60,292 nucleotides of DNA from Candidatus Gastranaerophilales bacterium (GTDB taxonomy: Bacteria; Cyanobacteriota; Vampirovibrionia; Gastranaerophilales; Gastranaerophilaceae), in the NCBI GenBank assembly GCA_944322945.1, contig CALUQN010000012.1:1-60292 (forward strand), read 5' to 3'. Each line of letters opens with the position of its first letter. Within the stretch, counting starts at the first letter, position 1. Positions 33,149 to 37,285 of this stretch are shown here, one piece after another. The translations under genes and the position numbers were made by a program. The notes below the pieces were generated by a model, which was not told the origin of the DNA, made no database searches, and worked only from the letters and a program-made list of their open reading frames with translations.

Positions 33149-34384
33149 TTAGACTTCTTCGTCATCTGAAACTTCTTCAACGGCTTCGTCGTGCTGGATA
33201 TCTTCTTCGTCGTAAGCCTGCTGGTTCATTTCTTCTTCTATTTCCTGCTTCAATTCATCGTCTTCATCTTCAACAATATCGTCCTGAGGCTCTTCTTCAT
33301 AGTTTTGAATATTTTGAGCTTCGGCTTTTTCCATTTGTGAAACGCTCTTGATATCTATCTTCCAGCCGGTTAATTTATGCGCAAGTCTTACGTTTTGACC
33401 TTCGCGACCGATTGCAAGGCTCAATTGGTCATCAGGCACGACAACCATTGCTTCGTGTGCGTAATCGTCATCTGCCATAATATCCACTGATACAACTCTT
33501 GCAGGTGAAAGTGCGTTAACAATGTATTCTACAGGATCGTCGGAATATCTTACAATATCAATTTTTTCATTTTTCAACTCGCCTACGATTGTTTGAATTC
33601 TTGAACCTCTCGGTCCGATGCAGGCTCCGACAGAATCTACTTCAGGATCGTTTGACCAAACTGCAATTTTTGTTCTGTAGCCGGCTTCGCGGGAGATTGA
33701 CTTAATTTCAACAATTCCGTCTTCAATTTCCGGAACTTCGAGTTCAAAGAGTTCTCTGACGATTTCTGCGTGTGCATGGGAAACTATTACCTGCGGCAAT
33801 CTTGTTGTTTCTTTTACATTGAGAACAAAAACTCTAATTCTGTTGCCCGGTTTGTAGTATTCACCCGGGATTTGTTCTTTTTGAGGCATAATAGCGTCGG
33901 TTTTACCGATATTTACGATTACGTTTCTGTTTTCAACACGCTGTATAATACCTGTCACAAGAGTGCCTTTTTTGTCCATAAATTCTTGCAAAACGAGGTT
34001 TCTTTCAGCTTCGCGAATTCTTTGGGTAATAACCTGTTTAGCGGATTGAGCTGCAATTCTGCCAAACTGTTCCGGAGTTACTTCAATTTTGACTTCATCA
34101 TCAACTTCAACATCTTCGTCGATTTCTTTTGCGTCAGCCAAAGAAATTTGCAGTTCCGGATCTTCTACTGTTTCAACAACGGTTTTGGTGCTGAAAACAC
34201 CGATTTCGCCGGATTGTTCGTCAAGGATGGCTTCAATATTAGCGGCTTCCTTTGTTCTCATGTGTTTTTTGTAAGCAGCAACCATTGCGTCGCAAAGTGA
34301 TGCGATTAATACATCTTTAGAAATTCCGCGTTCTCTTTCAAGTTCTTCGCATGCTTCAAATAATGCTGTTCCGATTTTAATCAT
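33149..34384 (-). CDS. nusA: Transcription factor NusA
   Basis: The protein is 411 aa. Domains in order: N-terminal RNA-polymerase-binding domain (1 to about 130), S1 domain (KKGTLVTGIIQRVENRNVIV), then KH domains with VDSVGACIGPRGSRIQTIV and LAIGREGQNVRLAHKLTGW. An Asp/Glu-rich tail (about 355-411) replaces the C-terminal repeats of E. coli NusA. It modulates pausing, termination and antitermination. It ends in a terminator, so infB and rbfA are not in this operon. Confidence 0.97.
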   Translation of the reverse strand: MIKIGTALFEACEELERERGISKDVLIASLCDAMVAAYKKHMRTKEAANIEAILDEQSGEIGVFSTKTVVETVEDPELQISLADAKEIDEDVEVDDEVKIEVTPEQFGRIAAQSAKQVITQRIREAERNLVLQEFMDKKGTLVTGIIQRVENRNVIVNIGKTDAIMPQKEQIPGEYYKPGNRIRVFVLNVKETTRLPQVIVSHAHAEIVRELFELEVPEIEDGIVEIKSISREAGYRTKIAVWSNDPEVDSVGACIGPRGSRIQTIVGELKNEKIDIVRYSDDPVEYIVNALSPARVVSVDIMADDDYAHEAMVVVPDDQLSLAIGREGQNVRLAHKLTGWKIDIKSVSQMEKAEAQNIQNYEEEPQDDIVEDEDDELKQEIEEEMNQQAYDEEDIQHDEAVEEVSDDEEV

Positions 34385-34420: not shown

Positions 34421-34883
34421 GACGATAAGACGTTAAGACGATAGGACGTTAAGTTCTTTACATGGTACAAGATGTTTCTACGTATTTTTTCAGTCCTTGT
34501 AATAACGCACTTACTTTTTTGATGTGTTTTTCTAGATTTTCGTTATATGTCGTAAAACCTAAGTCTTCTGCCAAAATTAACTGTGTATCAAGTTCGGCAA
34601 TAGAGCCTAAAGCAATATCCAGAAACTTTTTTGTATCTTTATCCGAAAACCTTGTACATCCTTCAGCAATATTTGACGGAACTGAAACTACACACCGGTT
34701 AATTTGAGATGTTAATCCATAAATTTCAGTTTTGGGAAATTTTGAAGTTAATTCATAGACTTCTTTTACCAGAATTCGTGCTTCTTTCCAAACTTCCAAA
34801 TCCTTATAATACATATATACCTTTCAATATTGCCTCTTATCTTTAACAGACTTAGCGTCTTATCGTCCTAACGTCTTATCGTC
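34421..34883. mobile_element. 463-bp inverted-repeat unit carrying a four-helix-bundle gene
   Basis: 33-bp inverted repeats lie at 34421-34453 and 34851-34883, differing at three positions; each is about two copies of a 16-bp motif GACGATAAGACGTTA. They bracket one gene: the left repeat ends 4 bp from its stop codon and the right repeat begins 36 bp before its start. The right repeat begins 1 bp after the rimP stop. In the rimP-to-nusA transcript the repeats would pair, with 30 Watson-Crick and one G-U pair of 33. No target-site duplication is obvious. Confidence 0.75.
34458..34814 (-). CDS. Four-helix-bundle protein (23S rRNA intervening-sequence type)
   Basis: The protein is 118 aa. The family signature is clear: YKDLEVWKEARILVKEVYEL, FPKTEIYGLTSQINRCVVSV, PSNIAEGCTRFSDKDTKKFL and SIAELDTQLILAEDLG. 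Members were first found inside intervening sequences of 23S rRNA genes and elsewhere stand alone; their function is unknown. AAAGG lies before the ATG. The gene sits between rimP and nusA, which are normally neighbours, inside a 33-bp inverted repeat. Confidence 0.92.
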   Translation of the reverse strand: MYYKDLEVWKEARILVKEVYELTSKFPKTEIYGLTSQINRCVVSVPSNIAEGCTRFSDKDTKKFLDIALGSIAELDTQLILAEDLGFTTYNENLEKHIKKVSALLQGLKKYVETSCTM

Positions 34884-34884
34884 T

Positions 34885-35367
34885 TTAGTCAATGTACAAT
34901 TTGGCAGACTGGATGTTGGCGCGCGGGATGAGAAGTTCCTGCCCGTCTTCAAAACGGAAAAACTTCAAGCCCTCATTCCCGTCAAAATCCAGTATCTCGC
35001 CTTTGAAGATTTTTTCTTCTTCACCCTCCAGCGGAGTTTTGAGCTTCAAGCTGATTCTTCTTCCTTTAAATATAATAAACTCTTTATCAGACTTGAACTT
35101 TCTCTCCAGCCCCGGAGAGGAAACTTCCAGATAGTATTTTACAGGTACAAGCTCGTCGAGAAAGTCATTCAGGCTGCGCGTAACCTTTTCACAGTCATCC
35201 AGCGTTATGTCCCGCTCTTTTGAGTAAAGAAAAATCCGTAAAAACCACCTGTGGTTTTCTTTCGAAAAATCAATTTCGATAGGAATTAAATTGAAACGCA
35301 TTGCGGTGTTTTCAATGAGAGGCGTTATCGCTTCTATAATTTCATGCCTGTTGACATCTTGTTTCAA
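34885..35367 (-). CDS. rimP: Ribosome maturation factor RimP
   Basis: The protein is 160 aa. It is needed for 30S subunit maturation. The RimP pattern is VKYYLEVSSPGLERKFKSDKEF, preceded by DDCEKVTRSLNDFLDE and followed by a C-terminal SH3-like barrel (GEILDFDGNEGLKFF ... IPRANIQSAKLYID). It is first gene of a rimP - four-helix-bundle - nusA transcript. Confidence 0.95.
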   Translation of the reverse strand: MKQDVNRHEIIEAITPLIENTAMRFNLIPIEIDFSKENHRWFLRIFLYSKERDITLDDCEKVTRSLNDFLDELVPVKYYLEVSSPGLERKFKSDKEFIIFKGRRISLKLKTPLEGEEEKIFKGEILDFDGNEGLKFFRFEDGQELLIPRANIQSAKLYID

Positions 35368-35403
35368 ATTTCTACCCTCTTAATTACCTGCATATATTAC
35401 CGA

Positions 35404-35431
35404 AAAAAGAACGGGGTGTCCCGTTCTTTTT
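35404..35431 (-). terminator. Intrinsic terminator between 590-aa gene and rimP
   Basis: AAAAAGAACGGG-GTGT-CCCGTTCTTTTT is a perfect 12-bp stem with T-runs on both sides. It would stop the minus-strand transcript of the 590-aa gene before rimP. Confidence 0.9.
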
Positions 35432-35512
35432 CTGTGACAATACTGTCTGTATTTTCATTATAACCTAACGATTTTTAAATGTAAAGGTTATGTAAAGTTT
35501 GTGTAACTTATG

Positions 35513-37285
35513 CTAACCTAAGGAGGCTGCTATTTCTTTTCTGACGTCATCTTCTGATATTGGCCGTGCATTACCTGAAGCGTCAGTTATCGTGAATTGA
35601 CCGTTGTTATATGAAATTTTGCCTGCTGAACTTTCAAAATCATTGCCGCCTTTCAGCCGCTGCATTCTTATCTCAACGGTACTGTCTTTTAGACCGGCAG
35701 GTTCCTGTGCAAATGCCTTGTCAAGTTGTGCAACTGCTTCTTCATTCATTCTTTGCACTTGAGCGTTAATGCTTGCTTCCATCTTGTCTTTCTGCGCCTG
35801 ATGGTGGTTGTCTATCTTTTCGTAAACCGTACGTGAATCCGTTGCGTTTTCACCGATAGCTCTGCCGGCAAATCCTTCCAGTGTGGTGTTTGCCGCTATC
35901 TGGTTAAATTCTGCGCAGGTCTTGTTATATTTTTCTTGCAGTTTGGCCTTTTTGCCTTCGTCTTTTTCTGCATCCATTTTGTTTTTCAGGTCGTAGGCTT
36001 CTTTTTCCAGCTTTGTCAGTTCTTTCTTTTCTTGCTGTTCAAGTTTTTTCTGTTTTTCGTCTGCTGTGGTTTCGACTTCTTGCAGATCTTCAAACTTGCC
36101 TTTCATTCCTTTCAGGTCATTCTGCATTGTTGTGGCTTCAGTGCCCATTTCCTCGACGGCTTTCTTAGCTGCGTCTAATTCCTTCATTTGAATTTCCAAC
36201 TTGGATTTTTGTTCGTTTGCCTGATCTAATTGTTTTTGCAGAGCAGTGGTATCCGCACCTTGAGCCTGTGCAGTGGATATTTGAGCCTCTAACTGGTCTA
36301 TGCGTATAGTGGTTGCGTTAAGTGTGCCTTTAACTTCACCGCTCTTAGTGGTGATTTTCGCTGTGCTGCCTTCCAGAGTATTGGAGAAGTTTTCGACAGC
36401 TTCCATTTTCTGGGTGATACTTGTTATGATTTGCGATGTATCATCAGAATTTATAGTAATCTTGCCGAGCGCAGAGGTGTCTAATGTGACTCCGACATCG
36501 CTCAGAACTTGTTTCAATGTCTTGTCACTGCCCTCGACGCCTATTGAACCGTCAAGTTTAGAGTTGATAGTTTCGCTAAAGTCAATCTTCGACAATTCAT
36601 CTTTCAGGTTTGTCTTGATTTCGTCAGCAGCTTGTTTTGCGTTATAAACATCCGCAGATGTGTTTGCGTTCTTAACTGCAGACTTGACGCCTGACGCTGA
36701 TGTTAAATCTGTCGGCGTGCTGACTGTCGGAGCAGAACCCAGATCACTCAAGGACATGTTGCTGTATACATTATCTTTGCCGCCGATATTGCCCAAATTA
36801 TTCAGGAAGTTCACTGCGGATTTACCCAACTGTGCACCTAATTGTGCTTTCATTTGGTTTGCGTACATCTGGTTAAGCTGTGCATACATATTGGCTTGCG
36901 CATTATTACCTGATACAATTACCGGTGGTCGTTGACCTCCAGCTAAATTTCGCCATCCGTTTCCTGCCACACCAGGTTGGAATGTGGAATAATCAACAGT
37001 TTTTTGTACATCATACTGCCAGCCTGAATTACCGCGAACGGCTCCGCTTGTACCTTTTCTAATTGCATCACTAATACTATAATGTTGAGAAAGCTTACTT
37101 TCAGTCCGTGCTGTCCTTGCATTTTCAGCTGATGCAGGCGATGCAGTCCGTACCGACTCTGAAGCTCTCGCTTTTATGGTCGGCTTGCTGTCCCCGCTGT
37201 CTGAAACTGCCTGTTTCTTGACTGCTACGGGGTTCTTCCGAATATTTGCAGCTACTGCTGTTTTTACGCCTGGAAGTGGTGCCAT
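35513..37285 (-). CDS. 590-aa coiled-coil protein, unknown
   Basis: I do not recognise a family. The ATG at 37285 has GAGAGAG upstream. The first 70 residues are Ala/Ser/Arg/Lys-rich and disordered. A Gln/Asn/Gly-rich part follows (about 85-165; MYAQLNQMYANQMKAQLGAQLG). A Ser/Thr/Asp-rich part (170-290) precedes a long coiled coil (about 300-480: IDQLEAQISTAQAQG, KQLDQANEQKSKLEIQMKEL, KLEQQEKKELTKLEKEAYDL). No signal peptide or membrane segment. A structural or surface-assembly role is possible; there is no enzymatic motif. Confidence 0.75.
   Translation of the reverse strand: MAPLPGVKTAVAANIRKNPVAVKKQAVSDSGDSKPTIKARASESVRTASPASAENARTARTESKLSQHYSISDAIRKGTSGAVRGNSGWQYDVQKTVDYSTFQPGVAGNGWRNLAGGQRPPVIVSGNNAQANMYAQLNQMYANQMKAQLGAQLGKSAVNFLNNLGNIGGKDNVYSNMSLSDLGSAPTVSTPTDLTSASGVKSAVKNANTSADVYNAKQAADEIKTNLKDELSKIDFSETINSKLDGSIGVEGSDKTLKQVLSDVGVTLDTSALGKITINSDDTSQIITSITQKMEAVENFSNTLEGSTAKITTKSGEVKGTLNATTIRIDQLEAQISTAQAQGADTTALQKQLDQANEQKSKLEIQMKELDAAKKAVEEMGTEATTMQNDLKGMKGKFEDLQEVETTADEKQKKLEQQEKKELTKLEKEAYDLKNKMDAEKDEGKKAKLQEKYNKTCAEFNQIAANTTLEGFAGRAIGENATDSRTVYEKIDNHHQAQKDKMEASINAQVQRMNEEAVAQLDKAFAQEPAGLKDSTVEIRMQRLKGGNDFESSAGKISYNNGQFTITDASGNARPISEDDVRKEIAASLG

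Follow-up and report, generated by a model that had tools for sequence, protein, structure and literature searches.

A candidate minimal mobile DNA element between rimP and nusA: an intervening-sequence protein gene framed by inverted octamer arrays

Introduction

What is a gene of the 23S rRNA intervening-sequence protein (IVP, S23p) family doing between the protein genes rimP and nusA, and why should it be closed off by inverted repeats? The unit lies in a window of 60,292 nt, the whole stretch of DNA analysed here, from a gut bacterium, Candidatus Gastranaerophilales (contig CALUQN010000012.1). From its letters it had been predicted to be a minimal mobile unit whose repeats form a stem in the mRNA and which survives by being excised from transcripts, much as the intervening sequences (IVSs) of 23S rRNA are. 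The IVP family, PF05635, is widespread and its structures have been solved, and we know of no function for it. Dispersed tandem arrays of 7–8-nt units have been described for decades, to our knowledge with no origin given. The present analysis joins these two puzzles: IVP genes of many phyla are framed by just such 7–8-nt arrays.

Results

In a profile search, the open reading frame between the two host genes matched PF05635 with 122.8 bits (cut-off 33.8) and TIGR02436 with 116.9 (cut-off 24), and the IVP profile retrieves the structure 2GSC at 4e-36, which bears out the family assignment of the original prediction. The gene order on the minus strand is rimP, the 118-aa IVP gene, nusA (Table 1). 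The IVP gene is present once in its own genome, whose assembly is 98.6% complete, and PF05635 is the sole domain that the profile search found encoded in the unit, with no endonuclease domain. Two arms of 34 nt, 91% complementary and with 395 nt between them, enclose the gene; their local-alignment score is 26.5, where shuffled flanks reach 18 at most, so the clean framing that had been described holds. The repeats had been read as 33 bp long and made of a 16-bp motif repeated twice. They are indeed inverted, but each arm comprises 34 nt with four tandem octamers of the consensus GACG[AT]TA[AG]. The outer edge just behind the rimP stop and the separate ribosome site of nusA, outside the arms, were both confirmed. 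A known RNA family at the rimP–nusA site was rejected, all matches being sub-threshold; further upstream, in front of rimP, 35397–35544 (minus strand) resembles an L20 leader below threshold (29 bits versus a gathering threshold of 58.7).

Table 1. Parts of the unit and its host genes, in window coordinates
Feature	Coordinates	Strand	Remarks
nusA, host gene downstream	33149..34384	-	own ribosome site AAAGGA, outside the arms
3' arm, inverted copy, inward-reading octamers GACGATAA GACGTTAA GACGATAG GACGTTAA	34421..34454	+	
Subterminal motif GTTCTTTACA, GTYCRTTWCA-like	34453..34462	+	immediately inside the 3' arm; common to gene-less array elements
IVP / S23p four-helix-bundle gene, 118 aa	34458..34814	-	PF05635, 122.8 bits
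GAAAGG, Shine-Dalgarno-like, for the IVP gene	34820..34825	-	by reading the sequence
Subterminal motif GTCTGTTAAA	34842..34851	-	immediately inside the 5' arm
5' arm (sense strand), octamers GACGATAA GACGTTAG GACGATAA GACGCTAA	34850..34883	-	outer edge (34883) 1 nt beyond the rimP stop
rimP, host gene upstream	34885..35367	-	

Among the 30 genomes examined at this junction, rimP and nusA are mostly separated by a gap of 13–50 nt, and an IVP gene is found there only in the genome of the window (G000), G020 and G027. An ancestral operon gene was therefore rejected, and empty sites, which a mobile unit had been predicted to leave, exist in most relatives. Array remnants lacking an IVP gene occur at rimP–nusA in G003, G030 and G014, and solo GACG arrays without IVP at groES–groEL in G020 and G078. 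Comparison by eye of filled with empty sites at both junctions, between genomes that are mostly MAGs, one per species and not near-isogenic, showed no target-site duplication beside the inverted repeats of the units. The window's own genome carries CCTAGTCACTCAATTA in its groES–groEL gap (L268, G000:C3); this resembles a vestige of the groES-lineage IVP unit, GTGACTAA in type, that other species have there.

Inverted-array framing of IVP genes is a general pattern. In the family-level clade, 90 of 383 genomes hold a PF05635 match above cut-off. Scoring framing by aligning the upstream flank with the reverse-complemented downstream flank, we found tightly framing inverted arrays beyond the 99% level of shuffled flanks (12.5) at 90 of 95 clade loci; the median over these 95 was 22, while mismatched loci gave 9 and shuffles 8.5. 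The arms begin ~15 nt from the gene start and ~3 nt from its stop, and hold ~4.2 units each. Unit length is 7, 8 or 9 nt and unit sequence varies by lineage, and the two arms of one locus agree: own arms outpaired cross arms in 93/93 clade loci, cross pairing (between loci of less than 65% IVP identity) being at noise level. A scan of named genomes yielded 80 IVP loci, including members of the Bacteroidota, Planctomycetota, Proteobacteria, Chloroflexi, Acidobacteria, Cloacimonadota and candidate phyla; 37 of the 79 measured loci beat every shuffle, and further framed cases lie on viral contigs and on a Nostoc plasmid. Phages gave no DNA match, and none of 20 checked loci from other phyla had an rRNA match at the gathering threshold.

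The 98 IVP genes of the clade lie at recurring operon junctions, namely rimP–nusA (27), groES–groEL (25), a tyrS–cysE-like junction (8), and others in lpx operons, rfb operons and elsewhere; sites in other phyla include metH–metF and fatty-acid operons. Where long flanking ORFs were called on both sides, both neighbours read in the IVP sense at 88 of 93 clade loci. At the remaining five, the ORF that the automatic call had chosen upstream of groEL was antisense; the two that were checked (L103, L104) follow a co-oriented groES. In other phyla, 60 of 72 loci have sense neighbours on both sides. The 5' arm starts no more than 20 nt from the upstream stop at ~84% of clade and ~81% of other-phyla loci (hand-copied values, gross outliers omitted), and the ribosome site of the downstream gene mostly falls outside the arms. 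Sense orientation and stop-codon position would be best explained by a need for host-operon expression without harm.

On plasmids, two IVP genes depart from these habits. That of Nostoc edaphicum pNe_5 (L356), framed by TAGGGAG, has a ribonucleotide reductase gene on either side and lies antisense to them, which breaks the sense rule. That of Pseudanabaena pPg_01 (L358) lies between cas6 and cas4, and its arrays, (AAAAGCT)n on the upstream and (AAAAGCC)n on the downstream side, are direct rather than inverted. In a Cloacimonadota MAG (L225; 2075–2424, 2501–2794), a tmRNA gene is followed 77 nt later by an IVP match.

The elements also move between species. The IVP tree, built from 118 columns and poorly resolved at its deep forks, clusters by insertion site, with 15 site changes versus 58.7 for shuffled labels. 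The IVP of the window groups (98*) with those of G285, G277 (g54) and G227 (g2), all at rimP–nusA and all with GACGWTAA arrays. Elements of G020 and G104 are 99.2% identical, whereas rimP is 80.3% and nusA 88.7% identical, and the segment of near 100% identity runs from the rimP stop to ~60 nt inside nusA. Likewise, G003 (g1) and G184 (g25) share 92.5% identity in the IVP as compared to 84.8% in groES and 82.8% in groEL. Because element identity exceeds that of the flanking genes, the elements are mobile between species; plain homologous recombination by way of the flanks may have carried them. Related elements at the same site across species, together with recent transfer, are a trait of homing elements that the units share; unlike in homing elements, an encoded endonuclease for the empty site was not found. 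The IVP itself is under purifying selection (dN/dS 0.04–0.21 in 8 pairs).

Do the arms act in RNA or in DNA? If the unit were an mRNA counterpart of the 23S rRNA IVSs, RNase III would cut the arm stem and the IVP segment would leave the rimP–nusA transcript, a harmless and selfish arrangement. Protein family and size are those of rRNA IVSs with S23p ORFs, the units lie in sense orientation, and the arms are conserved in pairing and not in sequence. Moreover, the transcript is predicted to form a fold in which the two arms pair (-125.6 kcal/mol, z -5.5), in line with the mRNA stem of the original prediction. RNA helices under pairing selection usually show an excess of G.U, while absent such selection strand symmetry holds the ratio of G.U to A.C mismatches at 1. 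Over 143 loci, G.U and A.C mismatches in the arms numbered 83 versus 86 in the clade and 58 versus 66 in other phyla; the tRNA control for a G.U excess comprised 5 tRNAs only. With no G.U excess, arm pairing appears not to be kept at the RNA level and the arms look like DNA-level ends. Selection for an RNA stem thus finds no support in these counts, and neither does the predicted survival by excision from transcripts. Furthermore, the sites are intergenic, so that neither host protein requires excision, and the same arms bound gene-less elements in all orientations. We therefore regard an mRNA IVS as quite unlikely. The arms are also in register, unit order agreeing above shuffled order in 59 of 70 loci (p = 3e-9); one arm thus seems to have been copied from the other, or both to be bound jointly as DNA. 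G exceeds C in the 5' arm at 91 of 91 loci; this polarity was dropped as a sign of RNA because any inward-reading G-rich end yields the same.

That the octamer might be confined to the surroundings of the IVP gene was rejected, as it is dispersed in the genome. The 16-mer GACGWTARGACGWTAR has 78 exact copies, versus 1 for the reversed control, and 107 copies with one mismatch allowed; most reside in gene-less mosaic repeats. An inward-facing subterminal motif, ~GTYCRTTWCA, is common to the IVP unit and many gene-less repeats. Of the neighbouring arrays less than 800 bp apart in three genome sets, 15 pairs point towards each other and 1 points outward, and G110 harbours a gene-less family of 121–140 bp with GTGAYTAR arms and a common interior. 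Given these inward-facing pairs and the G110 family, the arrays behave as element ends. Gene-less elements bounded by such arms are scattered, occur in all orientations and outnumber IVP units by far. The arrays are the ends of elements that move with the IVP lineage between sites and species, and gene-less, MITE-like elements have ends of this kind too.

The mosaic gene-less repeats (L002–L052, L033–L036) contain modules such as CCCTCTCCT...AGGAGAGGG and GAGGTCTTAC..., and some short contigs start close to such arrays.

Dispersed arrays tend to carry the unit of the genome's resident IVP, as judged from three units. Seven genomes with an IVP of matching unit hold 34, 22, 52, 138, 36, 36 and 2 GTGAYTAR arrays, versus 0–12 in 17 other genomes (p = 1e-4). 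GGRAATAR arrays number 97 and 117 with a matching IVP versus 0–18 elsewhere, and GACGWTAR arrays are found in 4/4 genomes of the GACG-IVP clade versus 48/379 others (p = 3e-4); these tests are incompletely corrected for kinship, and the contrasts also hold within genera g25 and g18. There are exceptions. G214 (107 matches), G247 and G238 are rich in GACG arrays with no IVP detected, G003 has an IVP of the GTGAY unit and the array only as its own copy, and GACG arrays abound in G222, G240 and G127, whose IVPs carry another unit. A search for the repeat across the genome was seen from the outset as a test of the mobile-unit idea, which repeats unrelated to the gene throughout the genome were to refute. 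Taken literally, that outcome was obtained, the copies being dispersed. Most of them, however, are ends of the same kind of element and their unit tends to be that of the resident IVP, which strengthens the idea.

The array-rich genomes without IVP could also mean that the IVP gene rides along as a passenger or has been domesticated, having been captured between the ends of array elements that belong to an unlinked DNA transposase, with interspecies spread by homologous recombination at conserved operons. Gene-less elements being much commoner than IVP units would fit such a capture, as would the short flanks included in the segment transferred between G020 and G104. However, capture would have to recur, IVP genes being paired with arrays of differing units across many phyla, and array load is tracked by neither of the two enzyme types examined, Y1 transposase and reverse transcriptase (RT). 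We consider capture unlikely. Spread driven by RT was rejected because RT is absent from G110, G184, G128, G291, G222 and G240, and spread driven by Y1 because Y1 is absent from G020, G291, G222 and G127 and present in the array-free G147 and G002, all judged on incomplete assemblies. As each enzyme is missing from some array-rich genomes, neither is needed on present evidence.

Discussion

Our preferred reading, to which we assign a probability of roughly 0.55, is that 34421–34883 is a minimal mobile DNA element whose iteron-like array ends are probably recognised by the IVP. The minimal mobile unit of the original prediction gains support from the site-clustered IVP tree, the near-identical elements of G020 and G104 and the gene-less array elements. 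The element would consist of one IVP gene flanked on each side by an iteron-like array of some four octamers facing inward; it lies behind the rimP stop and would be expressed from the rimP–nusA promoter. Its product, of a family of nucleic-acid-binding rings, may bind, as DNA and at both ends, the tandem units that belong to its lineage; it would then be the specificity factor by which its own unit, and in trans also the gene-less ones, spread. The IVP family forms pentameric rings (2GSC), and these rings together with the homology to Avd make an iteron-reading ring plausible. We know of no catalytic site in the family; strands would be cut and joined by an unlinked enzyme or by functions of the host, and homologous flanks may favour repeated use of one operon junction in different species, in a homing-like manner. 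If this is true, array binding would be a checkable function for the IVP, the dispersed arrays would have an origin, and a mobile element as small as ~460 bp would settle harmlessly between essential genes.

Pentameric rings and arms of about four units would also fit a regulator. TRAP binds repeated triplets, and in a TRAP-like manner the IVP might bind tandem units in mRNA or DNA and tune its neighbours or its own gene, the arrays being co-spreading regulatory sites. The purifying selection on the IVP and the placement of units in highly expressed operons agree with this, and TAACTGA arrays in Beggiatoaceae have been proposed as post-transcriptional sites (PMC4679880). Yet presence is patchy (the 90 of 383 genomes over cut-off), the host operons have no common theme and unit sequence is unconstrained across lineages, and we hold a host-operon regulator to be very unlikely.

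The closest protein-bearing relative of the proposed mobile element is the 23S rRNA IVS with an S23p ORF, as in Coxiella, Leptospira and Brucella. Both have PF05635, a length of 430–460 nt, inverted terminal repeats of ~28–34 nt, sporadic presence and horizontal spread; the Coxiella IVS is 428 nt long, with a 28-bp stem and RNase III processing (PMC4990558). Long-stem termini, one of the features by which rRNA IVSs are defined, are present at rimP–nusA with the 91% complementarity given above. Unlike the rRNA IVSs, the unit lies between protein genes and not in rRNA, its arms are tandem arrays of 7–9-nt units common to gene-less elements, and RNA-level selection on arm pairing shows no sign. 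The closest working analogue is RAYT/REPIN (PMC3116915), in which a single-copy gene is likewise flanked by a repeat whose further copies lie dispersed in gene-less inverted pairs and which is specific to the resident gene's lineage. Here, however, the protein is a four-helix bundle and not a Y1 tyrosine transposase, and the repeats are tandem octamer arrays and not REP palindromes.

Published heptamer arrays resemble the present arms, and those of Xanthomonas lend independent support. Xanthomonas GGGAATC and Nostoc GGGGA(C/T)T (PMC4692102), cyanobacterial STRRs and TAACTGA repeats (PMC4679880) are 7-nt tandem arrays, mostly of four units. Xanthomonas campestris ATCC 33913 has 186 GGGAATC arrays, 70 convergent pairs among them, at a mean distance of 28 nt from the neighbouring ORF on the 5' side (PMC4692102); convergent pairs often stand shortly behind an upstream ORF. 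The structure 2GSC (XCC0516) comes from X. campestris, and the plasmid IVP of Nostoc is framed by TAGGGAG arrays. Unlike the present units, the published arrays are tied to no protein family in PMC4692102 and PMC4679880, and the literature searched gave no earlier description of a link between IVP genes and arrays. A gene order gmk – four helix bundle – nadD has been given for F. columnare (PMC5524665). More tentatively, and with the odds somewhat against it, IVPs and iteron-like 7–9-nt arrays may together make up a class of mobile DNA that is found across bacteria and has no recognised transposase; in this class the IVP ring would read the units as DNA and the dispersed heptamer and octamer arrays of cyanobacteria, Xanthomonas and others would be gene-less offspring.

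A further likeness is to Avd of diversity-generating retroelements, a homologous four-helix-bundle ring protein (PMC10053308). Unlike such retroelements, the rimP–nusA locus has no RT, template repeat or variable repeat; there is no RT match in the window, and the genome's two lie on other contigs. In G020, a weak PF05635 match (L066, G020:C23:1023-1316) lies ~650 nt from an RT match (G020:C23:1962-2633) and is probably the Avd of a diversity-generating retroelement; other PF05635 matches below cut-off may likewise be Avd.
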